Assembly (NCBI GenBank): GCA_022925895.1
Contig: JAKSYS010000124.1
Span: 1-64,000, forward strand
Length of the DNA stretch: 64,000 bases
Source of the DNA: Fragilaria crotonensis
Lineage: Eukaryota; Bacillariophyta; Fragilariophyceae; Fragilariales; Fragilariaceae
Reading direction: 5' to 3'
This document shows, one piece after another, positions 31,194-59,392 of the stretch. Each line of letters starts with the position of its first letter. Position 1 is the first letter of the stretch. The position numbers were made by a program, and so were the translations under genes. A model generated the notes under the pieces. It was not told the origin of the DNA. It did no database searches and saw only the letters and a list, made by a program, of their open reading frames with translations.

Positions 31194-34100
31194 ATGCAGG
31201 ATCCCCATGCTGTGGACCAGACTCTATCTGCTCTCAAGGCTATGTCATGGACTGCTTCTTTGCCTTTCAAAGGTCATTTTTGTCATGCAACCGATGATTT
31301 CAATGCATCATTGGAAACGGAGTACGACCTCTTTCAGTACACTACCTCCATGTACAAGGGTTCCAAGCATATTATTCGGTTCAGTCCATCTCTTTATCCC
31401 ATCAATGGTGGATTTGAAAGGATTCAGGAGGCCATAGTCTTATCACTGACTTACTCCAAGCTGCCAAATCTGTTGGGAATTGTGCCCTTGTTTCCAATGG
31501 TTATGGTTTGCGTTCCCAACCAATGTCACAGATGTACTACTGACTGACCAACGCGTATTGAAATGCAGTAATTTCCGCCAGTATTCATCAGAAGAAGGAG
31601 GAATGTCCTGCACACCGAACCAAAGTACTGGAACCGATTCTTATCGTGTTACCACCTACACTGGTGATAAGAAGAATGCCCGTGGGTGCAAGAGTTCTGG
31701 CATCGGATTGAAACGTCGCAATTCAACTCTACGTGGTAACTCCTGCACTTGTCGTGTCAAATTCACACTCCGAATTGACCATAATAGCTTTTCCTTGTTT
31801 GCGGAATTGGAAACAATCAGCACACTGGCCATCCTCCTCTTCTTTCCAATGAAATAAGGAATCGTAAACGCTTTCTTGACATTACAACCCTGGAAACTGT
31901 TGCTGCAATGAGTGTTGCCAACATCCAGCCTGCCCAAGCGGCTCTGTTTACTAAAACCCGTACGGGTCAGATTTTTACTCGTGGTCAGATGGCATATGTG
32001 CAAGGATTTACAAAAATGGCAAAAGACTTCATGGCTTCCCCAAATGTTCATGCTACCACAACAGCATCGGAGTCTTCACCCTGTGAGAATATGTTGAGTT
32101 ACTTACAAAAAAGTGGTGCCTCGTATGTCTGTCTGTATCATCATGGCAAATCAAAAGAACTACGTGGTAACAGTGTAAAGGCTGCACGTACTGAAGCCAT
32201 TCCTCATGATTTATCAGGTGAACTAACCAGCCTTTCTGTTATCCCAACTGATGATGACACTGATGACACTTCACCTATTCACGAGAAGCCAGTACCTCTG
32301 GAGGTGGCAGAGACATCCACTTTTAAGAAATATGCTTTGGAAAGCAGACTTGCGGTTGGTGCAAGGGAAGACCAGGATATACTCATTGCCTGTTGTTGGG
32401 TTTTACCAGAAGGCAGGCGCCTGTTCCACGCTTTTCCTGAAGTTGTATGCGTTGACGGCACTCATGAGACGAACAATGAAAGCAGACCATTGCTGACACT
32501 CTCTGTGAAAGATTCAAATGGAAAGGTGACTGTGGTTGTTAGGTGCATTGCCCCGAATGAACGATCTTGGTTCTTCCGTTGGCTATTCCAAGAAGCCATT
32601 CCTGTTCTTCTTGGTGCACAATCACTACATGCTGTGAAACTTATCATGACTGACGGTGATTCCCAAGAAATGACACAAGTTGACTATGCCATCTCCACAC
32701 ATTTTGTCAATGCGTACTCGATGTGGGTGGCACCTTGTTGATCAAGGCTGGCGACGAAATTGTAAAGGCTTGGGTTATCGGAGAGGCAAGGATGATGCCG
32801 CCAAGAGGCAGGTAAGAGTAATAAAAACCTGGATCTACAGCTGGATGCGCCGAGGGATACTTTTCCAAGACGAGTACGAAATGTGAGTACACCTACATGT
32901 TTATTCTGTGTGTTATCTGTGATACCATTTTTCTAAAAGAATCGTCAACATCAAAGAAGTTACGCCCTTTTACATATGTACTTGAAATCAGACACTATTA
33001 AGGCAATTTTTGGGGAGGACGGTGGAGAAAAGATATTGCACTTTATCCGCAATTACATAATTCCACAAGAGCAGAGTTATTGCTTTTATCTGAGGAAGGG
33101 TGAGACACTTGAGACCAACACAAATTCTGGGCACGAAGGTACAAATAATGCTATCAAAGCTGGTCCTTCCTGTGCTTCCACAGCATGGTGTTGACAAATC
33201 TGTCAAAATTCAAGTTGACACCGATTCCAACAAATTTGACCTATACCAACGATATATGGCTAGTGCCCTGTTTGGAAGAGCAACCTGGAGTAACTCTCCC
33301 ACCGTCAATGATGTCACCCTTCCTGCAGAGTTCATGTTGAAATTCGCTCTTGATCAATGCGAGAGCTATGCTTCTTGGAGAGCAAGCCCTTTCAAATGGC
33401 TTGTTGTTCGGTCAGTTGACCGTGATGTCCATTCTTTGATTCCATGCTTCCACAGAGTGTACACTGTCACCTCACAAGACTTTGACAACAGGGTTTGTCT
33501 GATGTGTGACTGCAACTACTACGAATGCAATGGTGTCATCTGCCCACACATGATGCATGTGAAGAAGTATTATGCAAGCAATCAAACATCAGTCACCACG
33601 ACATTTCAGTACGTTGGTGGAAATCATATATTTATTTCTCAATGAAGAAGGAGAGTGATTGCTCACTAACTGAGAAAGAGATAAAGCAGAAGCTGGAATC
33701 AATACGTGAGAATGATTGCAAAGGCCCAAACTTTATTCCAAAGAATGACGATCATACTTTCTCTCCATTCCATCGTGTCTACAAGTGTGGGAAGAATTCA
33801 AATGAGCAATTCAGAAATGCCACTGAAAGTACCATTGACTCCCTTTCCAAAAACCCTCAAAACTGGACAGTGTCGTAAACTACACCAGGGATGAGGTTGA
33901 GATTGCCCTGAAGAATGCCAAAAATACTGTTCCCGTATCAATGTCGCAAGAGATCCACTTGCCTGAGGAACCACTCATCGACGCTGGTCATGAAACTGAG
34001 CACACGAATACTCATCTTGACGACAATGACGACATCCTCATGGAATCTGAGTTTAGAAACTGACTGCATTGATTTTGGATCACGTGCTCTTCACCATGAA

Positions 34101-34349
34101 GACGTATCCGAATTGGAACGTTACAATGCGTACGACAGCATTATGCCAAGAGCAAAGGAACTAGTTAGTCTTGTTGATGCCTCAAAAGCCCACAAGAGAG
34201 GTCTTCTTGTTGAGGAGGCACTCGACAAGATTATCTTCACCGAGAAAGCCAACATGGCTTCTGAGAAACCACCACCCAAAGGGTCCCTAGTTTCAGGGTG
34301 TCCTGTTGGCAAGGTGTGCAAAACATATGTCTCATCATGGAGTTTTTAA
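31194..34349 (+). CDS. MULE-superfamily transposase (copy 1), frame-broken
   Basis: Cut-and-paste transposase of the Mutator-like type. Parts in order: FAR1/WRKY-GCM1-like zinc region with NSCTCRVKFTLRID and GNNQHTGHPPL (31740-31840); MULE catalytic core with VCVDGTHETNNESRPLL (about 32445), a strand through ERSWFFRWLFQEAIP and LIMTDGDSQEM (about 32640); a CGWHLVDQGW block (about 32710-32760); GHEGTNNAIK (about 33135), likely the catalytic Glu; and a SWIM zinc finger CDCNYYECNGVICPH at 33505-33555. A 57-bp GT-AG intron fits at 32883-32939. A C-terminal tail runs to 34349. Similarity passes between frames at least five times, so the copy is damaged or the sequence has length errors. ATG at 31194 chosen; an upstream exon is possible. 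It points toward the 34424-35575 array. Confidence 0.85.
32883..32939 (+). other. Probable intron in MULE copy 1
   Basis: GTGAGT donor and TTCTAAAAG acceptor, 57 bp, separating two stretches that both match MULE transposases. Confidence 0.55.
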
Positions 34350-34423
34350 AAGTAGTACATTTAGAATTAATAACAATGTTGACTTAGACTTTCGTTCTTG
34401 TTCGACATCATGACTAGGATGGG

Positions 34424-35575
34424 GACTATTTGGTGATCGAAATTGATCTTCAAATAGTCATCACAGTACGAGTATCACAAGTACAGTCGAAGGTGACTAT
34501 TTGGTGATCGAAATTCGATCTTCAAATAGTCATCACAGTACAGTATCACCAGTACAGTACAATGGCGACTATTTGGTGATCGAAATTCGATCTTCAAATA
34601 GTCGTCACAATACAGTATCACCAGTACAGTACAATGGCGACTATTTGGTGATCGAAATTCGATCTTCAAATAGTCATCACAGTACGAGTACCACCAGTAC
34701 AGTACGACGGTGACTATTTGGTGATCGAGTTCGATCTTCAAATAGTCGTCACAGTCTGATATCACCAGTACAGTACAATGGCGACTATTTGGTGATCGAA
34801 ATTCGATCTTCAAATAGTCGTCACAGTCTGAGTATCACCAGTACAGTACAATGGCGACTATTTGGTGATCGAAATCGATCTTCAAATAGTCGTCTGTCTA
34901 GTATCACCAGTACAGTACAATGGCGACTATTTGGTGATCGAAATTCGATCTTCAAATAGTCATCACATACCACCAGTACAGTACAACGGTGACTATTTGG
35001 TGATCGAAATTCGATCTTCAAATAGTCATCACAGTACAGTATCACCAGTACAGTACGAAGGTGACTATTTGGTGATCGAAATTCGATCTTCAAATAGTCA
35101 TCACAGTACAGTATCACCAGTACAGTACAATGGCGACTATTTGGTGATCGAAATTCGATCTTCAAATAGTCGTCACAGTACAGTATCACCAGTACAGTAC
35201 AATGGCGACTATTTGGTGATCGAAATTCGATCTTCAAATAGTCATCACAGTCGATACCACCAGTACAGTACGACGGTGACTATTTGGTGATCGAAATCGA
35301 TCTTCAAATAGTCGTCACAGTACAAGTATCACCAGTACAGTACAATGGCGACTATTTGGTGATCGAAATTCGATCTTCAAATAGTCGTCACAGTACGAGT
35401 ATCACCAGTACAGTACGACGGTGACTATTTGGTGATCGAAATTCGATCTTCAAATAGTCATCACAGTCTGAGTACCACCAGTACAGTACAATGGCGACTA
35501 TTTGGTGATCGAAATTCGATCTTCAAATAGTCGTCACAGTCATATCACCAGTACAGTACGACGGCGACTATTTGG
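34424..35575 (+). repeat. Tandem array 1 of palindromic ~72-bp unit
   Basis: About 16-17 head-to-tail copies of a ~72-bp unit. Half of each unit is a near-perfect 37-bp palindrome bounded by GACTATTTG and CAAATAGTC; the other half is a GTAC-rich linker (CACCAGTACAGTACAATGG). Copies differ by a few bases. Relative to the arrays at 37070-38841 and 42612-43297 the unit is inverted (GGTG to the left and CTTC to the right of the palindrome centre here, the reverse there). Confidence 0.93.
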
Positions 35576-36898
35576 TATTATTGTTTCCTCCAACAACTGC
35601 TGTCTTCAGGTATAACGACACACAAAACACATCTTTCTCTTGATATTGCAATGTGCGGGATGTCAAACAGTGCTGATACAATGGATTGAAAAGTAACATA
35701 TCTCCCGGCCTCAGTGCCACGGCAACCCTTGTTCTGCAAATGCAAAGTAGTTCGTTACGTCGGCATCCAATCGGTATTTATCAAACCGACCCGGTTGCAA
35801 TCCATGTTGCGAAATAATGGTTGTCAAGGAATAGAAAAAATCCTCATCGGTATGCGAATTCAAACAATAGTTTTGCCACAGGCAAGACTACCCCAAATTG
35901 GTTCAGATGGCATACCTACCATACTTGGCCAATCGGCAAACCATTGGGCACTACGGAGTCCTCGAAGATCATTCCCTGGAATGAATCCTTTGCAACTTCA
36001 TGACACCTCTTCATTAAGTCACGGATTTGTGTCTTGCTCCAGTCACTTAATGTTTTCGCCAAGACTCGATAATACCAGTTGAACCACGGTTTGGCTTTAA
36101 CCCAACAGTGGTGTATTTGCCATTATCTTCCGCAACAGGTACTCGTTTAATTCCACGCACTTCTGCTTTGGATTCTGCATCCTCAAGTGCATGAAGTGCC
36201 TCGATGGTTTGGTTAACCCTTGTAAGTTTTTCAACAACATACGGACGTGGGATCAAAGTGAATACGTTATCCCCACTCGGTAAAATCAAACGGGCACCAG
36301 ACATAGTGTCAATGACTTTAAGATCATTGATTGCAAACAGCATGTGCGCATCACCTATGCATTTGCGAAGTCTCGTTGAGTTTTCCATATCGGCTCCACT
36401 ATAGAATAATGGTTTACAACTGTTCTGCAACAGTGTTTTGCCCAGTGAATGCTCATGGGACGACGAAACTTGCATCAAACTATCTAGCCTTTTCTTCTTC
36501 AAATAATTGCGCTTCTTTGCATAAACACTCTTTGGCTTGCCATTTTCTATTGCCTTCTTGTATGCTTCCTGCGTCGTGATGCTTGACTTTTTCCTTGATT
36601 TATATACATGTTGAAAACCTCGTTTTCCAGTCTTGCCAATGTTCTCACTTGTGGTATCATTCTGTACAACCGTACTCCTCATCATGCTTTTTGTGACGTC
36701 AAGGTTGGAACTGCTGTTACTGTGCCCCGAGTCACAGATAACAGTGACCTGTTTTGACGTCCTCATGATGGTTTCCTCGTTGCTACATTTGCATTCCACA
36801 ACCGTACTCCTCATCATGCTTTTTGTGACGTCAAGGTTGGAACTGCTGTTACTGTGCCCCGAGTCACAGATAACAGTGACCTGTTTTGACGTCCTCAT
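35568..36898 (-). CDS. Putative 2-oxoglutarate/Fe(II) oxygenase-like protein (copy 1), frame-broken
   Basis: An unrecognised family seen twice in the window (also 54181-55486). Layout: two copies of a Cys/Ser-rich motif (TVICDSGHSNSSSNLD) at the N-terminus; a basic linker (GKRGFQHVYKS, KPKSVYAKKRNYLKKKR); a conserved core (LKVIDTMSGARLILPSGD; VAEDNGKY.TVGLKP.RGSTG); then SHTDEDFFYSL with an HxD pair at 35854-35846, LRPGDMLLFNPLYQHCL with a distal His at 35672-35670, and an Arg five residues on. HxD plus distal His after a GD-loop is the iron-binding pattern of 2OG/Fe(II) oxygenases; that assignment is inference. The frame is open from 36898 (first ATG) to 36047 and continues after at least two shifts to a TAG at 35570-35568, which lies inside the last palindrome of array 1. 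Confidence 0.5.
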
Positions 36899-36908
36899 GA
36901 TGGTTTCC
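36668..36908 (-). repeat. Tandem duplication inside copy-1 oxygenase-like gene
   Basis: Two almost identical 109-bp copies (36668-36776 and 36800-36908) with a 132-bp period, i.e. exactly 44 codons, so the duplication keeps the frame and doubles the N-terminal motif. Confidence 0.9.
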
Positions 36909-37069
36909 AAGTTGCTTCTGCCGTTTGATAACCATTCGCAACAGCGTTGGGCAAGGAATCGAAGGAGGAAAAATGTGATCAGAGTTTATACTTTCTGTCA
37001 CGTCGCATGTGTCAGAAGTACGTCAGTGCTCAAGGGCGACATCACTCAGAACACTCGTCAAAGAACAAA

Positions 37070-38841
37070 ATTCGTACACCAAATAGTCGTCATCGTACTG
37101 TCATACTGTTACTTGTTCATTCGTGACTATTTGAAGAACAAAATTCGTACACCAAATAGTCGTCATCGTACTGTCATAGTGTTACTTGTTCATTCGTGAC
37201 TATTTGAAGATCGAAATTCGTACACCAAATAGTCGTCATCGTACTGACATACTGTTACTTGTCCATTCGTGACTATTTGAAGATCGAAATTCGTACACCA
37301 AATAGTCGTCATCGTACTGACATACTGTTACTTGTCCATTTGAGACTATTTGAAGATCGAAATTCGTACACCAAATAGTCGTCTTCGTACCGTCATACTG
37401 TTACTTGTCCATTCGTGACTATTTGAAGATCAAAATTGTACACAAAATAGTCGTCATCGTACCGTCATACTGTTACTTGTCCATTCGTGACTATTTGAAG
37501 ATCGAAATTCGTACACCAAATAGTCGTCATCGTACTGACATACTGTTACTTGTCCATTTGAGACTATTTGAAGATCGAAATTCGTACACCAAATAGTCGT
37601 CTTCGTACCGTCATACTGTTACTTGTCCATTCGTGACTATTTGAAGATCAAAATTCGTACACCAAATAGTCGTCATCGTACCGTCATACTGTTACTTGTC
37701 CATTCGCGACTATTTGAAGATCGAAATTCGTACACCAAATAGTCGTCATCGTACTGACATACTGTTACTTGTCCATTCGTGACTATTTGAAGATCAAAAT
37801 TCGTACACCAAATAGTCGTCTTCGTATCATACTGTTACTTGTCCATTCGCGACTATTTGAAGATCGAAATTCGTACACCAAATAGTCGTCTTCGTACTGA
37901 TCATACTGTTACTTGTCCATTCGTGACTATTTGAAGATCAAAATTCGTACACAAATAGTCGTCATCACGTCATACTGTTACTTGTCCATTCGCGACTATT
38001 TGAAGATCGAAATTCGTACACCAAATAGTCGTCATCGTACTGACATACTGTTACTTGTCCATTCGTGACTATTTGAAGATCAAAATTCGTACACCAAATA
38101 GTCGTCTTCGTACTGACATACTGTTACTTGTCCATTCGTGACTATTTGAAGATCAAAATTCGTACACCAAATAGTCGTCATCGTACTGACATACTGTTAC
38201 TTGTCCATTCGTGACTATTTGAAGATCGAAATTCGTACGCAAATAGTCGTCATCGTACTGACATACTGTTACTTGTCCATTCGTGACTATTTGAAGATCA
38301 AATTCGTACACCAAATAGTCGTCATCGTACCGTCATACTGTTACTTGTCCATTCGCGACTATTTGAAGATCGAAATTCGTACACAAATAGTCGTCATCGT
38401 CTGACTACTGTTACTTGTCCATTCGTGACTATTTGAAGATCAAAATTCGTACACCAAATAGTCGTCTTCGTACTGACATACTGTTACTTGTCCATTCGCG
38501 ACTATTTGAAGATCGAAATTGTACACAAATAGTCGTCATCGTACTGACATACTGTTACTTGTCCATTCGTGACTATTTGAAGATCGAAATTCGTACACCA
38601 AATAGTCGTCATCGTACTGACATACTGTTACTTGTCCATTCGTGACTATTTGAAGATCAAAATTCGTACACCAAATAGTCGTCTTCGTACCGTCATACTG
38701 TTACTTGTCCATTCGCGACTATTTGAAGATCGAAATTCGTACACCAAATAGTCGTCTTCGTCTGTCATACTGTTACTTGTCCATTCGTGACTATTTGAAG
38801 ATCGAAATTACGGGTTACTTCGTCTAAGAAGACTATTTGAA
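37070..38841 (-). repeat. Tandem array 2 of palindromic ~71-bp unit
   Basis: About 24-25 copies of a ~71-bp unit with the same GACTATTTG...CAAATAGTC palindrome as array 1 but a different linker (CATACTGTTACTTGTCCATT). Orientation is opposite to array 1, so the two arrays form long inverted ends around the oxygenase-like gene. In parts, units with CGTGAC and CGCGAC alternate, a two-unit higher-order repeat. Confidence 0.93.
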
Positions 38842-39022
38842 GATCAGAATCTGTACACAATTAGTGCAATCGACACTGTGAGCATCTGCACCTGATTTGT
38901 ATATGTTGAAGGTCGTCAAGTCTTAAACAACTCATCTCCCTCAGTATGCCCCGAAGACAAAGAGCGCCGAAGGCAACCAGTACGCATGACGATGATCCAT
39001 TTGACGGATGTGAACCCCAGTA

Positions 39023-39778
39023 ATGAAGACGATGATTGAGATGATGAAATGGCACCACCGCATTCCACGTGATCAATTACCAACGTTCCTACAGGAATAT
39101 CGTATTCTTCACTTTGTTGGAAGAGAAGATGAATACAATGCGAGTGATACTGTTTATGAATTGTATCATGTTATATTCGACGACCATTCAGATCGGAAGT
39201 CACTGTCATCTTGCCTTGGTAAGGGCGAGACACTTAGTATATGGGAAAAGGAGAAACCCACTGCTATATGCGCTATAACGTTTGTACAACGAGAGAACGC
39301 TGTTTTGGTTCTTTTTTTGGCAACAAAGGTTGACTATCAGGCCAACGGAATGGCAACTTTTTTGCTTTCGATTATGCATCAAGTTGTAAGGTGTAGGGTG
39401 GGTGTTGATGAAGTAAATGTTTATTTGAAAGCAAATCCGACCGCGAACAAAGTGGCATGGGGTTATTATTCAAGACGCAACTTTGCCGAAATGGCTGAAG
39501 GGACTGAAGCATTTCCTAAAGTTTTGAGAGACTGTTTTGTCAATGAGGTTGATGATAGTCCACTCAAGGACTATCTCGGATTCAGCAACGATTTGAAGTG
39601 GTTGACGATTTGCCTTACACGTGAATATTTTGCCTTCCCACAAGAATCCAGAAACCAGATAGTATTGAAAAGGTTGTTCAACAATCCCAATGACAACACC
39701 ATTGATTGTCCATCCGTGTATGCCTTCTTCCCGAAACTTAACATACGAAGAGGCAACATTTTGTACACCAACTTATGA
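39023..39778 (+). CDS. GNAT acetyltransferase-like protein
   Basis: An intact 251-codon frame from ATG 39023. The segment AVLVLFLATKVDYQANGMATFLLSIM matches GNAT motif A: a beta strand then Q-x-x-G-x-A, the acetyl-CoA pyrophosphate loop. After it, VYLKANPTANKVAWGYYSRRNF matches the later GNAT helix-strand (N...A..FY...GF). It lies between array 2 and array 3, overlaps the start of the next frame by 89 bp, and may be joined to it in one protein (next gene in another frame). Acetylated substrate unknown. Confidence 0.6.
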   Translation: MKTMIEMMKWHHRIPRDQLPTFLQEYRILHFVGREDEYNASDTVYELYHVIFDDHSDRKSLSSCLGKGETLSIWEKEKPTAICAITFVQRENAVLVLFLATKVDYQANGMATFLLSIMHQVVRCRVGVDEVNVYLKANPTANKVAWGYYSRRNFAEMAEGTEAFPKVLRDCFVNEVDDSPLKDYLGFSNDLKWLTICLTREYFAFPQESRNQIVLKRLFNNPNDNTIDCPSVYAFFPKLNIRRGNILYTNL

Positions 39779-40972
39779 TTGTTACTCGGGTGAATTTTGG
39801 GATGACAAGGCCTTCCATCCGAAGAACTCGATAATGGAAAAATACCTATTCCAAGGTCCAAGTGCTCGTCTGACTTGGATAGATCGTTGCCTTACGCGCA
39901 AAGGTGACGCTCTTTCTCCAGACTTTGTGGACATTGCTCTGGGATGGCTGCAGCGGTATTGTAAAGCTGAAATTTGGTCGACCCTGACCATCATTCCTTG
40001 TAAGATCATGACTGAGGTGTCAACAATGGAGAGCCTTTTTACATCCTTCATTGAAGGACGGAACGTTGCATCTTCGGTTCGCGACCTAAAAACCGATACA
40101 GAGAGAAGACAGTTTGTAAACCACATCTTTCATTACGAGATTGACCAAAAGAGGTTTATGGAGGCAACAATTCTGGTGGTGGAGTTCATTATACAACACA
40201 AGGATCTCCTCACGAAGCCGTTTATTGTCATTCCTGCACAAGAGGATGAAGATTGTTCATGGACTGTTTTCGTAGCGGTGAATTGTGGAAAAACTGGGAA
40301 CAATGATAACGATACAAAATGTGGATATTTTTTGTTTGATCCAACTGGAAAACGTCGCCGTTCTGACCCACCGCCAATTTGCCGGTTCTTCCTCAAATTG
40401 GTGCACTTCATACTCAGTCCTGAGAATGATCCAAATGCAAAAGCACGAAAACCAAAAGAAGAAAAGAAAAGGGAAAGCTCACCATGGAAAGACAAGGTTG
40501 TTGCACCATGGTTTTTCAACATGCATTCGTTTTACGTCGGTTTCACACGGCAAAGCGTTAATTTTGGTTGTGTCGTCACTGACAAGAACAATGAGACATG
40601 TGACATCGAGAAGGGCGCTTCCGACCGTTGAGTTTACCGCCAGATTACATTCTAATTCAGGAAACGTCAAAGGATGTGGCGCAAAGTGGTTTAAAATCAT
40701 TGATTTTCATCCGCGATTTTTGTGTCATGGTGCACGACGTCACATTCGACACGAGTGGGAATGTGAAAGGTGACATCACTTTTGACAGGAATGACAATGT
40801 CAAGGGCATGGGCAGGAACATTCCCACATCAACACGAAAATTTGCTCACTATTTGCATGACGTGTACGTGAGCTTGTTTCAACTGATTGACAGAATAGCA
40901 AGCAGCAACTTTGGGTCGGTTCGAGAAGAAGCTCATGAGTACAAAAATATCTTCGTCCCAGCAAGGGGATAG
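39690..40972 (+). CDS. C48 (Ulp1)-like peptidase-fold protein
   Basis: Main frame 39690-40631 (313 codons), with apparent continuation in another frame to 40972. The pattern WLQRYC...IIP, PFIVIPAQEDEDCSWTVFVAVN, then GYFLFDPTGKR resembles the Ulp1/C48 core (strand, HW, strand, D-S/T-G). The catalytic His position appears to be Ser (CSW instead of HW), while the Asp is kept; a late NFGCVV could hold the Cys. So the fold is suggested and activity doubtful. Ulp1-type proteases accompany some plant MULEs (Kaonashi type), which makes its place near a MULE interesting. Alternative: unknown family. Confidence 0.4.
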
Positions 40973-41238
40973 AACGGTCGCTTTCGTTGGAAACTAACGA
41001 TGCCCGGACCACGACATGCGTTTCCTGATTTAGCCAAGATATTGCAGTGGCAACCTTTGTCGAAAGAAAGAGTGTTGCTTGGCAGGGAAACAGATTTGTG
41101 CCAGATGAATAATGATGATGTAGCGAAGCGGTTGCGAAAGACTTCGCGAAAGCCTCGACAAACAAAGAAAAAGGGAAGACGGATAGTGGTGAAGAGCAGT
41201 CGGGTGGTCTAGGCCAGCGAAAGCAGGATGATCCATCG

Positions 41239-41862
41239 TTGACGAAGTCGCCAGCACGAAAGGGTGAAGCAGAGGCAGTACAGGAACAAGATCATACATC
41301 ACCAGAAAGATTCAAGACACCGAAAAGATGCCTGATGGAGCACATACGACCACGGCGCCTCGCAGGAAGTGAATTTGTGCCATTGTCTATACAGCATATT
41401 GCTACATTTATTTCAAGTTTAAAGAAGGACTTGAATATGCTGCATCAGAAGATGAGAAGAAGAATCTGTGTTGGCAAATCCTTGCTCTTTCACGAGAAGT
41501 CTCCATTGCCATTTGTCGAAAATGCGTTGAAGTTTATACGCGATAATTTTGAAAAGGAAAATGAAAGTGTTTCGATAATCGCCAAACCTGGGAAAAAGGA
41601 TGTACTGTGTGGGAAGGGGCACCGCAAATGCATTCCGTACCTTGATCGCACATTGGACTTCAAGAAAATGCACTTGTCAGCAGCTAATCAGGCAGAAAAA
41701 TATGAGGTGCAGCGTACCATTTACACAACTCTAAAAGGAGGGATTTCGTTTCCTCGAGATGACAGAAAAAAAGGGTGGAAGGAAAAAACATACGATGGTG
41801 GAATGGCGTATATTAGATCGCGAATGAAACGTGTGTGTAACGAAAAGAAGGGGAGGGCATGA
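41239..41862 (+). CDS. DUF6824-like domain protein 1
   Basis: The frame has no ATG at its left edge; the first in-frame ATG is at about 41335 (MEHIRPRRL). KKDVLCGKGHRKC followed by a Leu/Lys-rich helix region and GWKEKTYD...RSRMKR resembles DUF6824, a domain common in diatoms that opens DVLCGRG. Its TGA overlaps the ATG of the next frame (ATGA, 41859-41862). Role unknown; DNA binding has been suggested for the domain only by its basic character. Confidence 0.55.
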   Translation: MTKSPARKGEAEAVQEQDHTSPERFKTPKRCLMEHIRPRRLAGSEFVPLSIQHIATFISSLKKDLNMLHQKMRRRICVGKSLLFHEKSPLPFVENALKFIRDNFEKENESVSIIAKPGKKDVLCGKGHRKCIPYLDRTLDFKKMHLSAANQAEKYEVQRTIYTTLKGGISFPRDDRKKGWKEKTYDGGMAYIRSRMKRVCNEKKGRA

Positions 41863-42584
41863 CGCCGTCAATAAATGAATTGGAGGCCGGACCAGGTCCA
41901 TTTGAAAGTACATCTCTACCGCCAAATGGTATTGTAGTACGTAAACGCGATGAACCAAAGGGACATCCACCAAACATGGCTTTCCGTCGGATAATCCGAA
42001 GAGCTGCAGATGCCACGTTTGAAAGTCGAACAGAAAGCGCTAAGGACAATATTGCAGGTGAAGTGCTAGAGGAGATGCGGAAAAAAGGTTACATCTTTGT
42101 CAATAAAGAGGAAAACGTTTGGAAAGGTGTCAACACAGAAAAAGTAAGGAAAGAGGTTCGGGATCGTCTAAGGAAATCAGTGTACTTTGGGAAACAAAGT
42201 ACGGTGACGGGAAAGAGGAAAGCTGGTGACGACAATGATGCTGGCATTGAATGCAAGCAACCTTCAAAACAGCGGATGACAGGAAGTTTGAAAGCTGGTG
42301 AGAAGGATGATGCTTGTATTGAATGCAATAAGCCTTCAAAAGAGCGGATGACAGGAAGTAAGAAAGCTGGTGACGAGGATGATGCTTGTATTGAATGCAA
42401 TAAGCCTTCAAAGCACTCGTGTCGGAAATGTAAGAAGCATGTATGTTCCATGTGTTGCAATGAAAAGAGAAAGCTCGAAAACACTTGGTGGTGCAACGTG
42501 TGTTTCAATAGACAAAGTGTTTGGAAGCAAACATTAATTCGGGACGGCAATTACAGTACTTCGGATGAAGAATGCAAGAAATGA
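41859..42584 (+). CDS. DUF6824-like domain plus Cys-rich zinc cluster protein
   Basis: An intact 241-codon frame from ATG 41859. Residues ~35-105 (GHPPNMAFRRIIRRA, then a helix, GYIFVNKEENVWKGV and KVRKEVRDRLRK) match the NHPGN...FR to LR portion of DUF6824. Residues ~121-190 are three 24-residue repeats (KAG..DDACIECNKPSK..). Then CRKCKKHVCSMCC...WWCNVC forms a compact Cys-rich cluster, reminiscent of the C-terminal zinc cluster of piggyBac-like transposases. The combination is not one I know. Likely a DNA- or chromatin-binding cargo protein of the island. Confidence 0.55.
   Translation: MTPSINELEAGPGPFESTSLPPNGIVVRKRDEPKGHPPNMAFRRIIRRAADATFESRTESAKDNIAGEVLEEMRKKGYIFVNKEENVWKGVNTEKVRKEVRDRLRKSVYFGKQSTVTGKRKAGDDNDAGIECKQPSKQRMTGSLKAGEKDDACIECNKPSKERMTGSKKAGDEDDACIECNKPSKHSCRKCKKHVCSMCCNEKRKLENTWWCNVCFNRQSVWKQTLIRDGNYSTSDEECKK
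42219..42420 (+). repeat. In-frame 72-bp tandem repeat (x3) in coding sequence
   Basis: Three 24-codon units, each supplying an I-E-C-[NK] pair site; the last runs into the terminal Cys cluster. Confidence 0.85.
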
Positions 42585-42611
42585 GTTCATCGTAGTCGTA
42601 CATGCTGTATG

Positions 42612-43297
42612 TAGTAGCCTATTTGAAGGTCAAAATTTGTACACCAAATAGTCGTCTTCTTACTGTCATAGTGTTACTTGTTCATTCGTGACTATTTGAA
42701 GAACAAAATTCGTACACCAAATAGTCGTCATCGTACTGTCATAGTGTTACTTGTTCATTCGTGACTATTTGAAGATCGAAATTCGTACACCATATAGTCG
42801 TCATCGTACTGTCATACTGTTACTTGTTCATTCGTGACTATTTGAAGATCGAAATTCGTACACCAAATAGTCGTCTTCTTACTGTCATACTGTTACTTGT
42901 CCATTCGCGACTATTTGAAGATCGAAATTTGTACACCAAATAGTCGCATCGTACTGACATACTGTTACTTGTTCATTCGTGACTATTTGAAGATCGAAAT
43001 TCGTACACCAAATAGTCGTCTTCTTACTGGCATACTGTTACTTGTCCATTCGCGACTATTTGAAGATCGAAATTTGTACACCAAATAGTCGCATCGTACT
43101 GACATACTGTTACTTGTTCATTCGTGACTATTTGAAGATCGAAATTCGTACACCAAATAGTCGTCTTCTTACTGGCATACTGTTACTTGTTCATTCGTGA
43201 CTATTTGAAGATCGAAATTCGTACACAAAATAGTCGTCATCATACTGACACACTGTTACTTGTCCATTCGAGACTATTTGAAGATCGAAATTCGTAC
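42612..43297 (-). repeat. Tandem array 3 of palindromic ~71-bp unit
   Basis: About ten copies of the array 2 unit in the same orientation as array 2, with a TCTTCTTACTG linker variant. Together with array 2 it makes direct arrays around the GNAT/C48/DUF6824 genes. Confidence 0.92.
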
Positions 43298-43998
43298 AGA
43301 AAGAAAGTTCTGTTGGTGTTGATTAAGAAGAAAAGTGTACTTGTATTCAAGGAGATTTGCAACCCTACTAGGTTGTAATCGAATACAAAGTAATGTAAGT
43401 TCGAGTGATTCAAAACAAGGGAAACACATGAATCACTGATAGAAGGAGATATGTAGCAGTTATCTTTCTGGCATGACAAAGGGTTGACATGCGCGTTAGG
43501 AAAAGCGCCGACAGAAGTCAACAACAAAGATTCCGTGTTTTGTCAGCCATTCAAATTTCCGATGTCTTCAAAAATCTTCTACAGGAGGACTCACTGTAGT
43601 TTATTACTGTGACGTGGGTGCTGACGTCAAATTGGTGAAACCTAATCGGATCTTATTTGTAAACCTTCCTACAGTAATATTCTTACGGTACAACGTACTA
43701 CATCCTACGATTAGAGTAACATCTCCGGTGGCAGTCTCAAGTGGACTGTGTACTCCTCTAGTAGAGTAGTACTAAAGTGCCAGGTGGCAGTTACAGTATG
43801 CCGTATTCATACGACTGCACTTGTACTCCGATTTTTAGCACGATACTACCAGGTACCAAGTTTTTCGTACTTGGTTAAAAAATGGTGAAAAAACCAAGGC
43901 CGACGTGGTTGCGTTATTTAGTACCAGGTACTGTATGTCACAGTACTCGTATCTCGTATCTCGAATTTCACTGTACATCCGAAATTTGAACAACCACG
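43298..43998. other. Intergenic, upstream of GST gene
   Basis: No gene. GTAC-rich words at 43690-43960. The promoter of the gene at 43999 should be here; no TATA box picked out. Confidence 0.5.
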
Positions 43999-52004: not shown

Positions 52005-52590
52005 GCGATACTGGATGTTTAACAGGATGACAGGGTACTGGTATGTAGTACAAGTACTGTGCTACGTACAATGTACAATACCTCCATTTCAACCATCGGG
52101 GGCACAGAATGCGAAACTCAATTTCAATTGGTCGAAGATCGCTCATGTACTGTACCTGCAAATTTCAGTATATCACGTTCCGTACTCCAAATACAGTGTA
52201 GGAGTACAGTACATCTCATCATGATCTTATATGTGTTTTTATGTTTTATGTATGGAGTCCCCGTCTGTGTCCCCATTTCGAGCCGTCCATGCATTTCAAA
52301 GCGAACTTCATAGTGAAGGGATATATCTTATGATGTGAATGGAAAAAATATAGCACATGAATACTTTTATATTAATATATTTTAACGGCTAAATCACAGA
52401 TCGATCGATGTTGCGACAGCATAGGAATCTTGGTTTCCCTTTTTTTGAAAAAAAATGTGCTGTTCAAGTTCGAGGATGTTACTAGCATTTTTGTGTGTCC
52501 TTCACACAAAACACACACAAATTTCAAACCAGCCCCATTACCATTCTTGTCCCTCCTACTCTTCTCCTTTGTTCCCCACTTTGCATTTTG
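52005..52590. other. Intergenic
   Basis: No gene. AT-rich stretch at 52320-52450, then the start of the tandem units. Confidence 0.5.
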
Positions 52591-53096
52591 TTTCTGTAAC
52601 GCTCACAGTTCACAGAGGAGTCAGGTAAGTTGGGCAATGATGTTGTTGCGGTGTTTGTGATGGATGGTTGTTACTGTTTTTTGACGCTTGTTATTTCATT
52701 TCATTTTGGCGCGGCTTGTTGTACTGTATGGGACTGCCGCTTGTTTCTGCAACGCTCACAGTTCACAGAGGAGTCAGGTAAGTTGTGCAATGATGTTGTT
52801 GCAGTGTTTGTGATGGATGTTTGTTACTGTTTTGTTGATGCTTGTTACTTCATTTCATTTTGGCGCGGCTTGTTGTACTACTGTGCCGCTTTTTGTACTG
52901 TATGGGACTGCCGTTTGTTTCTGCAACGCTCACAGTTCACAGAGGAGTCAGGTAAGTTGTGCAATGATGTTTTTGCGGTGTTTGTGATGGATGTTTGTTA
53001 CTGTTTTGTTGATGCTTGCTGTTACTTCATTTCATTTTGGCGCGGCTTGTTGTACTACTGTGCCGCTTTTGTACTGTATGGGACTACCGTTTGTTT
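52591..53096 (+). repeat. Three tandem 153-179-bp units with splice-like junctions
   Basis: Units begin at 52591, 52744 and 52918. Each opens with a pyrimidine-rich TTTCTGCAACGCTCACAG, a 16-base segment TTCACAGAGGAGTCAG, and GTAAGTT, i.e. a possible acceptor, micro-exon and donor. The rest of the unit is T/G-rich. This is the outer repeat block of the second accessory island. Confidence 0.85.
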
Positions 53097-53725
53097 CTTG
53101 TACTGTCTGGGATCTCGTACTACTGCTGCGTGGGATCTCATACTGCTGCGTGGGATCTTGTACTACCGTGCCGTTTCTCGTACTCGTACTGTATGGGATC
53201 TCGTACTACTGCTGCATGGGATCTCGTACTACCGTGTCATTTCTTGTACTGTATGGGATCTTGTACTACTGCTGCATGGGATCTTGTACTACCGTGCCGT
53301 TTCTCGTACTCGTACTGTATGGGATCTCGTACTACTGCTGCATGGGATCTCGTACTACCGTGTCATTTCTTGTACTGTATGGGATCTTGTACTACTGCTG
53401 CATGGGATCTTGTACTACCGTGCCGTTTCTCGTACTCGTACTGTATGGGATCTCGTACTACTGCTGCATGGGATCTCGTACTACCGTGTCATTTCTTGTA
53501 CTGTATGGGATCTTGTACTACCGTGCCGTTTCTCGTACTCGTACTGTATGGGATCTCGTACTACTGCTGCATGGGATCTCGTACTACCGTGTCATTTCTT
53601 GTACTGGTACTGGGATCTCGTACTACCGTGTCATTTCTTGTACTGTATGGGATCTTGTACTACCGCGTGGGATCTCGTACTACCGTGTCATTTCTTGTAC
53701 TGTGTGGGATCTCGTACCGCGTGGA
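53097..53725 (+). repeat. Tandem array of GGGATCTCGTACTAC units
   Basis: Many copies of a ~30-66-bp module (GGGATCTCGTACTACTGCTG / GGGATCTTGTACTACCGTG) arranged in a ~126-bp higher-order period. Translates without stops in several frames, which is a product of the repeat and not a gene. Confidence 0.92.
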
Positions 53726-53748
53726 ATCTCGTTCAAAACCAAACGGCC

Positions 53749-53874
53749 AACGCTCAATGGCGCACTCCAACGCTCGATGGTGCACTCAACCAGCACTCCT
53801 AACGTATCATTACTGCGCCATGTATGATTGTCTGATACGTTATGGGCTGGCGTTGGAGTGCGCCATTGAGCGTT
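53749..53874. repeat. Perfect 25-bp inverted repeat (hairpin)
   Basis: 53749-53773 and 53850-53874 are exact reverse complements over 25 bp; a nested 9-bp pair (AACGTATCA at 53801-53809 and TGATACGTT at 53833-53841) extends the potential stem. Lies between the outer array and the oxygenase-like gene. Confidence 0.85.
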
Positions 53875-54039
53875 GCACGGTTCGATGGATGATAGTATCC
53901 GACACCCGTTGCATACTCACAAGACCGCGTTGCATACTCACAAGACCGCTGCTGGGAAAGGTCCTCCATCCTCACTCAGTGACTTAAAGAGCTTCTCTCA
54001 TTAATTCAAATAGCTCCCATTTTTACTCATTGACATTGT

Positions 54040-54400
54040 ATGTGGCAGCAGTAGTGCCGCGACCAATGGTACTTGGACCATGTTGCAAGCTTCATCGTGA
54101 AAAGGTCACTGCTAGCCCCAGCACATTGTACCTGGTAGCAGTAGCGCCGAGATCATCGGGAGTGGGAACATGATTCGTAGTTGCGTTGTGAAAAGGTCAC
54201 TGCTAGCCATCATGGTAGCAGTAGCACCGAGATCAACGCGACAACAATCATGAGGCCTGCTACCGGTGTGAAAAAGGCCACTGCTAGCCATGACATTGTA
54301 CTTGGTGGCAGCAGTAGCACCGAGATCAATGCAAGTTTCAGCATGATGCCTCGTACTGTTGCAAAAAGGCCACTGCTAGCCATGACATTGTTATAAGTAC
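54040..54400 (+). repeat. Degenerate ~90-bp tandem repeats at N-terminus of copy-2 oxygenase-like gene
   Basis: Four to five copies of a unit containing GGTCACTGCTAGCC and GGTAGCAGTAGCACCGAGATC. Read in frame they give TASH..GSSSTEINA..MMR, which resembles the repeated N-terminal motif of copy 1 (DSGHSNSSSNLD...MMRST). Confidence 0.7.
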
Positions 54401-55486
54401 TAACAGGAGCACTGATGACATCGAATCAAAACGTGGCTTCGAATGCAAACGTGGCTTCCAACACCTGTACAAGTCAACAACTACAAACTCGAGCCGCAGA
54501 GTGAATGAGGCCTACAAGGCTACAGTTAGGAATGGTGCTCCAAAAAGCAAAAATGCCATGAGACGTGACAAAGCAAAAACGAGAAAGATTGCGTGCCTGA
54601 CGGAAGTTGTGTCATCAAGTGTTCATGCATTGGGAAGGGCATTTCTGAGCACTCGACCAGTGTTTTACAGTGGAACCAAAAATAGAACGCTTCCAAACCC
54701 AATTCCGAATGGGATTATGTTATCTGCAGTTGAGGATTTGCGTGTGATTGATACAATTTCTGGTGCTCGAATGTTGTCATCGACCGGAGATACCGTTTTT
54801 ATTTTGATTCCACGTCATGACGCAATCAAGGACAATACTTATGTGAAGAGGACATTGATGGCACTGTATGCTCTAGACAAAGGAAAAGGGTTTCCGAAGT
54901 GAGAGAAATCAAGAATCACAGTTGCGGAAGACAATGGGAAGTACGCAACTGTCGGCTTGAAACCAAGGAGAGGGTCGACAGGCGTATCCGAGTTTTGGCC
55001 TGAGAAGTTGGGTGAGACTGATAGAGAGGTGATTAGAAAAGTAATGAGTAGATGTCAGGAAGTTGCCAAAGGGTATCTACCATCAACTGAAGTCCGAGGA
55101 CTTCTTTTGCTCAATTGCTTGGGGGTGGCAGCAAATAAGTGGAGTGACATTGAATCCCTCTGGGGTAGCCTTGCATGGGAAGAATTACTATTTGAATTCT
55201 CATGTGGATGAAGACTTTTTCTATTCCTTGACAACTGTTGCTTCGAACAGGGAGTGCAAGACAATGATTGTTACATGATGGAAGCCGCCATTTGCAACTA
55301 CTTTACGTTTGCCGAACAAGGAATTGCTGTGGCGCTGAGGCCTGGTGACATGCTGATCTTCAATCCGCTTTATCATCACTGCTTGTCGTCACGACGGCAA
55401 GGTATGAAAACGATGATGTCTTCTGCTTGTCTTTGTATTTGAAAACTGCAGTTGTTGGACAGAATGACAATCGTTTACCTATGTAA
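54181..55486 (+). CDS. Putative 2-oxoglutarate/Fe(II) oxygenase-like protein (copy 2), frame-broken
   Basis: Homologue of 35568-36898, sharing the N-terminal repeats, KRGFQHLYKS, NEAYKATVRNGAPKSKNAMRR, LRVIDTISGARMLSSTGD, VAEDNGKYATVGLKPRRG, SHVDEDFFYSL (HxD at 55201-55209), FTFAEQGIAVALRPGD, MLIFNPLYHHCLSSR (distal His near 55377, Arg near 55391) and YLKTAVVGQND, with TAA at 55484-55486. About four one-base shifts separate these blocks (near 54365, 54915, 55200 and 55420). The start is uncertain because of the repeats. Flanked on both sides by GGGATCTCGTAC arrays. Function inferred only from the HxD...H pattern; DNA- or protein-directed hydroxylation are both possible. Confidence 0.5.
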
Positions 55487-55565
55487 TTTGTTTAATTGTG
55501 TTCTTGGTAGCTTGCGTTTGCTATCATCGTCGTCGCAGTTGTTGTCACTTTGGTTGCAGTCGTCC

Positions 55566-55808
55566 TGGGATCTCGTACCGCGTACCGCGTGGGATCTCGT
55601 ACTACCGTGCCGTTTCTCGTACTGTATGTGCCTATGGGATCTCGTACTATCGCGTGGGATCTCATACCGCGTTGGATCTCATACAACACCGTTTCTCGTA
55701 CTGCGTGGGATCGTATGGCGTGGGATCTCGTACTAGCAACCGCGTGGGATCTCGTACTGTGTGGGATCTCGTACTGTGTGGGATCTCGTACAGCGTGGGA
55801 TCTCGTAC
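55566..55808 (+). repeat. Inner array of GGGATCTCGTAC units
   Basis: About nine irregular copies of GTGGGATCTCGTAC-type modules, same orientation as 53097-53725, between the oxygenase-like gene and the end of the MULE/JmjC-like gene. Confidence 0.88.
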
Positions 55809-55834
55809 AATTGTAAATATGTGACCATGAGGAA

Positions 55835-57294
55835 CTACAACATGAGTTTGTAATTGATGTTTAATGCATTAAGTACTTCTACTAACTTTTTATTCATTTT
55901 CTTTTCTTTCGGGACGACACTAGCGTGAGTACTTCCAACTCTCTTCTTTCTTACCTTTCTAGTACTCTTTGTCATCTGTTGCGAAGCACCTTCACGAAAG
56001 TTTGCAACTGCCTCTAAGCGGGGAGAAACCTCGTCAAAGAAAGGAATCCTCTGCATCCCAACTATCTTCCTTGTTGCTGACAGCAGCTTAGACAACCCGT
56101 CATTGCTGAAGAAGCGTTGCTCGATCGAAAAAATTTGAGTGACATGTGCAACAGCATTCCTGCCCACCTGCGCACTTCGGGCACAGGTTTCCTTCATCAC
56201 AAGAACCCTTATGGGCAGTTGATGCACCAAAAGCTCCAGTGTGATTGAAAGCACTGTTCTGTGCATCAACATTGATGTTCATGACATGGAACCGACGATG
56301 CATTTCCAAGCCATAACACTGGCTGCACACGTTGAAATCCTTTTGTAGCAGCTGCTCACATCCCCAACAGTGCATATATGTGTTTGATAACTCATGATAG
56401 CAAAGACTGCAAGAGTATCCTGTGTTATCATATGGATCAACAGGAAACACAGACAGATTCTCAGATGTATTCGGCAATTTTTGTGGGAAAACCTCAGCAA
56501 CCACGCACATTTCATGCCTGATGACGAATTCCAATGATGGCAATAGACCTCGTAGTAAATTCCGATGGAATTCTGGATCCTCAGGCTTCCCAGCTGATAA
56601 ATGAGATTCACTTTGAGCACTTTGTTTGAGCAAACACAGTTTGGGGATGCCAAGAGACTGTTTTGGTGGTGCAAAGTTTCTGTTGCGAAACGCAGATTCC
56701 AGTGTCGACGTCATTTCTCTGTTGATGCCCTCTGCTGTGTGCCCCATGAAGCACCAGTCCCAGGCTATGGAGAAGTTCACCATGTTCTTGAACTCCAACA
56801 TCCCCCTTTTGCTTCTGACTTTCTTTTTCCTTAAAATTTCCTTCCTCAGATATGAATGGCAATCATCTTTTGCCAGTGCCTCCAACCCAAGCTTTCGAAA
56901 TGCGTGGAACCTACCCTTCCCGATGTGTAAATGTTCACCAGGTCCCAATACCAGAACAACTGGGCAATAGCTATGATAGACAAAAGTGTTAGTTGACACG
57001 CTGAAATGAGGAATGAGAAGTCATAAATACTTACTTTAGTGATTTCATTCGCATGATTTCATCGTTGTTGCCTGGCCACTTGCATAACTTCATTCCTTCC
57101 TGAGATGATAACCTCACGAACCCAAGAAAACTGAGGAGTGACTTTGTCAAACTTTGTAGAGGCAGAATTGGCATCACATTCCTCCACGCCAGGTGAGGAA
57201 TATCTCCTCTTGAGGAGGAAGGCGTCCGTAGAAATTTGTGACACCAAGTAACAGAGGCGTGCATTGTATTGATGTGCAAGCAGTTTGGACCCAT
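55835..57294 (-). CDS. Cupin/JmjC-like segment with ZZ-type zinc finger, 3' part of MULE copy 2 unit
   Basis: Coding continues from the transposase through an intron at about 57026-57000 (GTAAGT donor, TTTCAG acceptor) into the frame 56999-56100. It contains GPGEHLHIGKGRFHAFRK, similar to the last strands of JmjC/cupin domains with their distal His; then a basic helix region; then CSLCYHEL...MHCWGCEQ...NVCSQCYGLEMHRRFH, a ZZ-type zinc finger; then CPKCAGGQECCCTCH. A Lys-rich tail runs in a shifted frame to 55835. I do not see the paired HxD/E of an active JmjC enzyme, so the catalytic claim is weak. Could be one gene with the transposase or a separate downstream gene. Confidence 0.45.
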
Positions 57295-59392
57295 ATTCAG
57301 TTAGTACGTCACCAACAATTTGTGGACGCATACTTTTGTAGTCAAGCGCAGAAGCTGCATCAACCTCCCTCCGGCTCATCTGGCGTGATAAAATGGTAGA
57401 GAGAGCAACACAGGATCGATCTATACCATGGAACGGACGAGGACCCAAAGGATGTCTCTTGATTGTGCTTGACTCACTTTCCACATTCGAGGTGGTCCTC
57501 ATGTTGAAGCAGCGGACATGCAATTTATTGGAAAATGAAATGCTCATCTTCCTTGGCGCAATGGACGTCATCACAAAATTAGTCAAGGCCTCTGCCATCA
57601 CATTCCCCATGGCAGAAGGGTCAACAACCTCAGCACTTCCAAGATGTACAAAAGCTTCAATGAGATGTCAAACTCATCAGATGTTTCGGGATAGTCGGAC
57701 AAAGAGTACATCCATTGTTGAACAGCTTCAAATTGTGCCTTACCCAAGGCACTGAGTCTGCCATCACTCAGGTGCGAATGTTTGAGGCCTCGATTTATCA
57801 AATGCCACACAGCATATGCTTACTGTTCCGCCACGGACTACCACGGTCGCCAATAAGATCCACAAGGGGGAATACATCTGAAGATCGCCATCAGTCAAAA
57901 TAATTTGATTCCGCTCAACAGAGGTACTTCCATGGAGTTGCACAAATGCATCACGGAAGCACCAATCAAAAATCCAGCGGCATTGTGATGGTAGAAATGC
58001 CTGGAACACACGGACAATTCGGTTCTCAGAAGTCTTCGCTGTCATGACAAGCAAGGGCCGTTTCTCAGCATTGGTTCCCATGGTAACATCGGCACACAGT
58101 GTTTCCGGAAACATACCAAAGATTCGCTGCTGCTGTTTTGATGCCCAAGCTGCACCAAGGAGCAGCTTTGTATTCCCACTAAGACCAAGCGCTTTTCTCA
58201 CCGATTCAGCATAGGAAAGAGTTGAAGCATCAGTCTCACGTGAGCAATAATGATTGTGCTCAGAACTGGATCCCCTGTTCCTCCCAGTCCTGATTATAGT
58301 GAGAAGCCGGGTGGCTGTATTGTCGTGTACAAGAAGAATGTAATCAAGGCTTTCCTCATTGCGCAAGTAGTGCACAAGTCTTTCAGCTGGTGATTGACCT
58401 AAGTCCACTGCAGTACCGCCACCAGGACCGACCTGATTTCCTCGTGTGCCAGCACACCTCCTCAGCTGGTCAGAGGAAAGAGAGATGCCAGTTCGCTCCA
58501 CAATCAGAGCCTGCACAATTGCAGGCTCTGAATTCAGTGAAATGCATTGCCTAGATAACTCAAGTTCCAATTGCGGCACAGTGTGATACGACAATCGGAC
58601 ATCAGCAGGTTCCTTTTTTTGGTGACCTTCATGGGATTTACACCCTGTCCCATCCGCACAAAAGTACCAGCGTCCAGCAACGTTGTTGTTAAGGCCATCA
58701 TTTGGTTCCCAATATAGTGAGAATGCAAATGGACATATTGACTCCTTGTTTGCTGCTGAGGGGCGAATGCGTTTTGACGAACGACCGGAAGACTTGTACT
58801 GGTTGATGTTGTTGTCGTTGTTGTTGTCGTTATTATCATTGTCATTGTCGTTGTCATCAATCTTGTTCCTCAAAAGATCCTTCTTGTCGTCATGAGCTCG
58901 AGAGTGCTGACAAAAGAATCGCAGTTTATTCGATGCCTTCTCCCAACCTTTGGATGCCACTTTGAAACCTGCCTGGGCACATGCCACTGCAATAAATGGG
59001 ATCACATGCTCTTTTCGGGATGAGGGACTGTTGGAATTAAAGCGACGAGGCAGATATTGACGAAGGTGCTTGCAATTGTCATCCCGGTTGCTACGCATTC
59101 CGGTCCCAATGAAGTCAGCAAGATTAACAGTCCTGATGGACTCATCACCGTCGCCAACTTGAACTTCACTGTCACCAACCTGAACTTCACTGTCACCAAC
59201 CTGAACTTCACTGTCACCAACCTGAACTTCATCCTCACCAACAACCTGAACTTTGTCCTCACCAACAACCTGAACTTTGTCCTCACAAACCTGCCCTTCA
59301 ACAAGCTGAACTTCTATAGGAAGAAATTCAGTGACCCATTGTTTATTCACCTCAACAAGAGCAGTAATGCGACTGAGGACAAATGGATCCAT
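57059..59392 (-). CDS. MULE-superfamily transposase (copy 2), frame-broken
   Basis: ATG at 59392; an uninterrupted frame to 57764 (542 codons). Near the start are acidic VQVGDSE repeats (59150-59290). A FAR1/WRKY-GCM1-like zinc region follows: CPFAFSLYW...RWYFCADGTGCKSHEGHQKK. The catalytic core has CADVTMGTNAEKRPLL, CRWIFDWCFRDAF and NQIILTDGDLQM. After a shift, VWHLINRGLKHS (compare CGWHLVDQGW of copy 1) and the C-terminal helical region run to 57059 with at least two more shifts. An Asp-rich (GAC/AAC) triplet tract is at 58800-58860. Distant from copy 1 but same family and domain order. Confidence 0.8.

Follow-up and report, generated by a model that had tools for sequence, protein, structure and literature searches.

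The gene for a predicted TET-like dioxygenase travels with MULE-type transposases in several transposon families of the diatom Fragilaria crotonensis

Dioxygenases of the TET/JBP type have been reported in DNA transposons of three fungal lineages (Kojima 2025, PMC12730594), and the accessible part of that paper names KDZ, hAT, Harbinger, IS3EU, EnSpm, ESTA, Plavaka and Helitron elements as their carriers. Neither MULE/MuDR elements nor diatoms are among the TET carriers named there, and its only mentions of MuDR concern VANDAL and SET-bearing oomycete families. The literature searched, which leaves most subscription papers outside, yielded no report of a MULE or a diatom as TET carrier; this is not proof of absence. 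A second related system is formed by VANDAL elements, in which, according to the accessible parts of two papers, the targets of the accessory protein VANC are tandem repeats that vary between related elements, while VANC itself has tandem peptide motifs (PMC5735166, PMC10398659). Here we describe two transposons in a stretch of 64,000 nucleotides of the Fragilaria crotonensis genome (the window; positions 1–64000 of contig C31, in a 62-Mb assembly), each combining a MULE-type transposase gene, a gene for a TET-like oxygenase and noncoding tandem arrays.

According to the original prediction, made from the window alone, MULE-type transposases are accompanied by a putative DNA-modifying oxygenase, the two genes being convergent and associated with arrays in a layout that recurs; this holds genome-wide. 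Genome matches to the two window oxygenases were merged into 56 loci (the counts are lower bounds, with coordinates transcribed by hand), at 35 of which a transposase belonging to the two query families is found no more than 6.5 kb away. Since about 0.8 would be expected by chance, chance pairing was rejected. The two genes are convergently oriented at 31 of these 35 loci, and a match to a third gene of the elements (gene 3) lies within 6.5 kb at 20 of the 56. No MULE was detected at the other 21 loci, and for at least seven of these the start or end of the contig is less than 2 kb away. By identity, the majority of the 21 belong to oxygenase groups D and E (A to E being group names of this analysis), and they make up most or all of these two groups. 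Group D oxygenases without a nearby MULE are found on contigs C411 (twice), C121, C271, C269, C389, C578 and C592, and less surely on C588, C551 and C847. Those of group E are C592:8071-8907, C258:1998-2783 and C84:87702-88322, which have gene 3 beside them, and perhaps one on C783. The PF21056 model, too, gave no match near the loci of these two groups. These loci, together with 28 listed transposase matches that have no oxygenase nearby, would fit an oxygenase that the element carries as passive cargo or that neighbours the transposase by chance, and transposons often capture gene fragments. However, the layout recurs across families with different terminal inverted repeats (TIRs) and arrays, and the oxygenase genes are under purifying selection with their catalytic residues kept (see below); we regard this reading as very improbable.

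The function that we propose, and consider probable, is element-encoded anti-silencing by DNA oxidation, in which a transposon with a MULE-type transposase would carry its own anti-silencing enzyme. The second gene would encode a 2-oxoglutarate (2OG)/Fe(II) dioxygenase of the TET/JBP fold, whose most likely substrate is a methylated base (probably 5-methylcytosine) in the DNA of the element itself, and its oxidation would lift or weaken silencing by host methylation and so allow expression of the transposase. The family-specific arrays beside the oxygenase gene would most likely be the recruitment site, and their recognition is best ascribed, as a candidate role, to the tandem peptides at the N-terminus of the enzyme, by analogy with VANC of the plant VANDAL MULEs. 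The linkage of the genes, the ends of the elements, the arrays, the predicted fold with its conserved metal triad, the purifying selection and the presence of C5-methyltransferase genes in the assembly are shown below; the substrate, the direction of the effect and the binding of arrays by the oxygenase are the parts of this proposal that we infer. The features of the two elements are as follows (arrays by Tandem Repeats Finder, TRF).

30692..43653, plus strand: family A element (copy 1) of about 12.96 kb, bounded by its TIRs; homology to C183 and C77 (98–99% identity) ends here
30692..30726, plus strand: left TIR of copy 1, GGGTCCGATTAGGTTTCACCAATTTGACGTCAGCA, from homology ends and TIR pattern search
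31167..34349, plus strand: MULE-type transposase gene of copy 1, in several frames; Pfam MULE 1.9e-10, ZSWIM1-3_RNaseH-like 5.3e-14; tblastn with the C860 relative
34419..35576, no strand: array a, 72-bp unit, 16 copies, between convergent 3' ends (TRF)
35568..36985, minus strand: ox1, TET-like 2OG-Fe(II) oxygenase gene, broken frame; N-terminal 132-bp (44-aa) coding repeats at 36666-36916
37061..38809, no strand: array b, 24 copies of a 73-bp unit, lying between ox1 and gene 3, whose divergent 5' ends face it (TRF)
39014..42584, plus strand: gene 3 region of family A; C-terminal open reading frame (ORF) with DUF6824, 30.9 bits (cut-off 27)
42619..43298, no strand: array c, 9 copies of a 73-bp unit resembling that of array b; the right TIR is about 0.3 kb away (TRF)
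43619..43653, minus strand: right TIR of copy 1, the minus strand reading AGATCCGATTAGGTTTCACC..., from homology ends
52255..59821, minus strand: family B element (copy 2), TIR to TIR, 7.6 kb, with an internal deletion relative to C12
52714..53732, no strand: copy 2 arrays on the upstream side of ox2, with units that overlap and measure 23 to 174 bp (TRF)
54181..55486, plus strand: ox2, TET-like oxygenase gene, broken frame; 93-bp coding repeats at 54213-54391
55566..55809, no strand: array with a 17-bp unit, TGGGATCTCGTACAGCG, downstream of ox2 in copy 2 (TRF 55635-55809; extent by BLAST)
56100..57020, minus strand: the cysteine-rich gene 3' of family B, with a weak match to an ADA2-type ZZ zinc finger, E 0.003, below cut-off
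57059..59392, minus strand: MULE-type transposase gene of copy 2; the segment that carries SWIM in C12 is deleted here

Copy 1 is ordered TIR, transposase (plus), array a, oxygenase (minus), array b, gene 3 (plus), array c, TIR, and copy 2 is ordered TIR, array, oxygenase (plus), array, gene 3' (minus), transposase (minus), TIR. The predicted genes and arrays of copy 1 were found as described, but the element is larger than had been supposed, the third gene region and the third array having been overlooked. The predicted layout of copy 2 was likewise confirmed, within the TIR-to-TIR extent given above and with the further ORF at 56100–57020. The sister copy on C12 has about 1.7 kb extra between gene 3' and the transposase, including another array, which is missing from copy 2. 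The TIR of family A is 35 bp long and copy 2 ends in a different one; the copies are separate insertions from two families. The suggestion of a single element family therefore did not stand, and several families exist.

Genome-wide, TIR-A has 189 matches and TIR-B 45 at up to three mismatches, and in both cases the reversed pattern, used as control, has none. Among the matches listed, TIR-A pairs are spaced about 12–13 kb (full elements), 2–3 kb or about 160 bp apart, the last resembling miniature inverted-repeat transposable elements (MITEs), with a few of other sizes. The transposase, the oxygenase and the third gene are all enclosed by TIR-A and TIR-B pairs. In most A copies the two ends differ, with GGGTCC at one and AGATCC at the other. 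MITE-like short elements of about 160–215 bp with TIR-A or TIR-B-like ends were seen on C34, C108, C143, C268, C297, C387 and C437, and on C152, C173, C626, C704, C764 and C605; on C152 the terminal bases are repeated about 22 bases outside the left end.

The transposases of the two copies are homologous, as had been predicted (33–34% identity), and so are the oxygenases (47% identity, E 6e-44). In both copies both genes are spread over several frames with stops (frameshifts or introns). In copy 1, the ORF at 31788-32741 (plus) scores 41.5 bits with PF10551 (cut-off 27.6) and 52.7 bits with PF21056 (cut-off 27.2). The ORF at 57764-59422 (minus) of copy 2 scores 29.9 bits with PF21056, above the cut-off, and 19.1 with PF10551, below it; the sister copy on C12 scores 28.4 with PF10551, above the cut-off. 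The MULE domain thus exceeds its Pfam cut-off in three families, in A with the window copy, in B with C12 and in C with C860. A SWIM zinc finger (19.9 bits, cut-off 19.6) is present as well in C12 and is not listed for the other copies scanned. The elements share with ordinary MULE/MuDR transposons the RNase H-like MULE domain, the SWIM zinc finger (in C12), TIRs of about 35 bp and short non-autonomous derivatives, but differ from them in their insertion sites.

Standard MULEs generate target-site duplications of 8–11 bp. At the exact element ends, the best direct match of this length has 4 to 7 mismatches at all 19 family A copies, and 3 to 7 at all nine independent family B sites (C152, C173 and C626, having flanks in common, were counted once; the right end is damaged in C197, C108 and C42). 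When the ends were allowed to shift by up to two bases, none of the 19 A copies had a match at one mismatch or fewer (14/1065 in the mispaired control) and two had one at two mismatches (control 87/1065 at two or fewer). In family B, one of the nine sites, with the damaged end of C197, had an 8-bp match at one mismatch (control 22/1596), so that one duplication is possible there. An earlier count over 17 A copies had the same outcome, with no convincing duplication. Since the duplication of standard MULEs was not found, we describe these as MULE-domain elements but not as standard MULEs. A KDZ transposase model exists in Pfam. It was not among the Pfam matches of the scanned element ORFs, and no convincing 8-bp duplication was found, the length given for Zisupton (KDZ) elements in the accessible part of PMC12730594. 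No empty site was found for one short B-like element, the left flank used lying about 22 bases outside the left end that the coordinates set. Neither the duplication counts nor the empty-site result has any bearing on the reading of the oxygenase.

The oxygenase is TET-like by predicted fold, its modelled double-stranded beta-helix being closest to TET/JBP. An AlphaFold model of one relative (confidence score pLDDT 94.8) gave the best structural alignment with TET2 (Z 19.5), followed by CcTET (15.3), NgTet1 (15.3) and CMD1 (14.8), all of which rank above the other PDB chains aligned, the next being AlkBH3 (11.5); Foldseek matched the model to CcTET at E 1e-9. The predicted 2OG-oxygenase was thereby borne out in kind, TET/JBP enzymes being the nearest solved structures. 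With TET2, CcTET, NgTet1 and CMD1 the model has in common the fold over 224–289 aligned residues and the HxD...H metal triad; it differs in its sequence (9–14% identity), in 2OG-binding residues that have no clear match by eye and in a Tet_JBP match that stays below the Pfam cut-off. Searches of PDB sequences with oxygenase profiles gave no relevant match, and no relatives of the oxygenase were confirmed in viral and prokaryote contigs. The resemblance to TET might be one of fold alone, the enzyme acting on RNA, a histone or another protein. Yet the best TET-family entries score about 3 to 8 Z units above the structures compared for this alternative and cover more of the model, and in the viral library named JBP1/TET domains also rank high, making up two of the six models closest to the oxygenase, and we judge a substrate other than DNA to be quite unlikely.

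A total of 187 relatives of the oxygenase were compared, none of which has a precomputed Pfam domain; motif counts use only those relatives that cover the motif. The distal His of the iron triad is kept in 122 of 123 relatives. HxD is kept in 118 of 120, of which 116 were recognised by pattern and two by eye. Of 122 relatives, 107 have an Arg five residues after the distal His, and 113 have an S-x-Y-x-K motif further on. Two distant relatives, P0142 and P0126, have weak zinc-finger matches below the cut-off (Zn_clus at the N-terminus; Stc1 at the C-terminus). The oxygenase genes are under purifying selection. Where both frames are long and intact, the ratio of nonsynonymous to synonymous substitution rates (dN/dS) is 0.20 for C105/C305 (351 codons), 0.19 for C388/C54 (350 codons) and 0.04–0.06 for the group D pairs C411/C121, C411/C269 and C121/C269 (346 codons each), which are the most strongly constrained of all. 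Some pairs with a frame that breaks off gave 0.4–1.3, values that were not taken to indicate neutrality; for B pairs the range was 0.15–1.04. As the oxygenase tree leaves the relations of A, C and E unresolved, we make no claim of exchange between elements.

Instead of removing methylation, the oxygenase could write a new mark, a hydroxymethylated or hypermodified base that might guide the transposase or control transcription ends, like the products of JBP and CMD1. CMD1 is among the fold relatives, and the accessible part of PMC12730594 states that CMD1 makes 5gmC and that JBP leads to base J; the 2OG site, moreover, looks unlike that of TET by eye. On the other hand, no glycosyltransferase-like modifying partner was among the Pfam matches of the scanned element ORFs, and we take this explanation to be an unlikely one.

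Noncoding arrays within about 1.5 kb of the oxygenase match were surveyed at 34 of the 56 loci and found at 27: all 16 A, all four C and all three B loci, four of the eight D loci and none of the three E loci. A fifth D locus carries only short two- to three-copy repeats. The units are of 72–73 bp or multiples in A, about 52 bp or multiples in C, 17–177 bp in B and about 65 bp in D, and look unrelated from family to family. That the array units are unrelated, as first proposed, is true between the two window copies; within copy 1, however, the arrays share a CAAATAGTC / GACTATTTG core. The N-terminus of the oxygenase often consists of tandem peptides of 31–46 residues, and in 23 of the 28 relatives with at least 70 residues before the core these repeats exceed all 20 shuffles.

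The arrays might also be transposase-binding repeats or the product of neutral satellite growth, unrelated to the oxygenase. The units of A (p 0.005–0.03) and C54 (p 0.01) hold inverted repeats, resembling protein-binding sites, those of C388 being borderline (p 0.055); and since array c of copy 1 lies near the TIR, there is room for a role of the arrays with the transposase. The E loci, which have an oxygenase and no array, also fit this reading. Against this, inverted repeats were not found in the B, C860 and D units, and hairpin-like units were dropped as a common rule. In nearly all A loci and all four C loci, moreover, the oxygenase has arrays on both sides. Finally, seven array-free elements of about 160 bp have the TIRs of the full elements, each in different flanks, and arrays therefore seem dispensable in cis for mobility. 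On balance we find an origin of the arrays apart from the oxygenase rather doubtful. If the anti-silencing function holds, a more specific form of it may be put forward tentatively, namely self-targeted, sequence-specific demethylation. The peptide repeats of a TET-like oxidase would be paired with a private array, so that the element would erase methylation only from itself. The TET strategy of fungal and the VANC strategy of plant transposons would thus be joined in one enzyme, and movement would be due to a MULE-type transposase acting without duplication of the target site.

Several observations bear on whether the host methylates its transposons. C5 DNA methyltransferases have 13 matches on nine contigs of the assembly, which were unscreened for bacterial contamination. 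In Phaeodactylum, loss of DNMT5a is reported to correlate with depleted methylation and with young transposons being overexpressed (PMC9998398). The CpG ratio is 0.54–0.74 in the transposase ORFs of A, B and C, compared with 0.91–1.05 in the host genes of the window, a depletion that would be expected if the transposase genes were methylated. The ratio is 0.53–0.91 in oxygenase genes, 0.93–0.96 in gene 3 and 0.96–1.94 in the arrays.

A number of points weigh against anti-silencing by a TET-like enzyme. The long terminal repeat (LTR) region of the window, with a CpG ratio of 0.92, is not depleted, and the depletion in the transposase ORFs could stem from codon use. The arrays were considered as CpG-enriched targets, as their ratio is high over the whole array, but a shuffle test at the level of the unit was non-significant and the excess is not taken as support. 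Foldseek TM-scores to TET enzymes are modest (about 0.33–0.46 by model length). In TET, an Arg after the distal His binds 2OG, and no clear counterpart of it is seen by eye in the oxygenase family. No match to Pfam Tet_JBP exceeded the cut-off, the best being E 0.0026, in five of 50 distant relatives; the protein is therefore named TET-like by fold and not filed as a TET/JBP member. The Tet_JBP model also had no match in the whole genome, a result that does not demonstrate absence since control genomes were silent too. To these points are to be added the 21 loci without a detected MULE, the array-free E loci and the position of array c.

Of the described systems, the fungal transposons are the nearest in content, with a transposon-borne dioxygenase of the TET/JBP fold, a coding region that is kept and a proposed escape from silencing by methylation (PMC12730594, accessible part). 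The fungal KDZ precedent cited with the prediction is thus published, and the range of carriers is wider than KDZ. The present elements differ in their diatom host, their MULE-domain transposase, their arrays and N-terminal peptide repeats, and in an oxygenase that Pfam Tet_JBP does not recognise over its cut-off. The VANDAL MULEs of Arabidopsis share with them a MULE-type transposase with an accessory gene, noncoding tandem repeats that vary between related elements and tandem peptide motifs in the accessory protein; in the accessible parts of PMC5735166 and PMC10398659, however, VANC has DUF1985 and DUF287 and no oxygenase, whereas the diatom accessory protein is a predicted enzyme. Neither DUF1985 nor DUF287 was among the Pfam matches of the scanned element ORFs, and the likeness to VANDAL and VANC is one of design only.

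Families A and C carry gene 3, and family B carries gene 3'. The middle ORF of the gene 3 region of family A has matches on 24 contigs, and in family C gene 3 is a 954-residue open frame in C860 (L074:6423-9284). The best PDB match of gene 3 is NAA60 (E 0.13), a faint resemblance to GNAT; identification as a ULP1 protease or a GNAT was dropped, the model having a pLDDT of 35 and only DUF6824, in the last ORF, exceeding the Pfam cut-off. For gene 3' of family B (L006), a longer protein encoded on C203, likewise rich in cysteine, contains a similar part, and in this protein a JmjC-like HxD...H is seen by eye; a JmjC assignment was not adopted, as it came by eye from the C203 relative alone and PDB gave no relevant match. 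Elsewhere in the window, a host gene with a PCO_ADO domain (E 4e-32) lies between the two elements at 45123-45809, and a GTGTT microsatellite of 25 copies at 51379-51508. The region 1–24000, with mostly negative GC skew and with CCHC-type and Copia-like ORFs by eye, probably consists of LTR retrotransposons.

If the proposed function is correct, capture of a TET-like oxidase by transposons would be a convergent outcome reached outside the fungi and in another transposase lineage, and methylation would be a general front of the conflict between hosts and transposons, diatoms included. The oxygenase family adds a branch to the TET fold, with 187 listed relatives. Should the arrays and the peptide repeats prove to be matched pairs, these families would constitute a natural set of sequence-directed DNA-demethylating enzymes.

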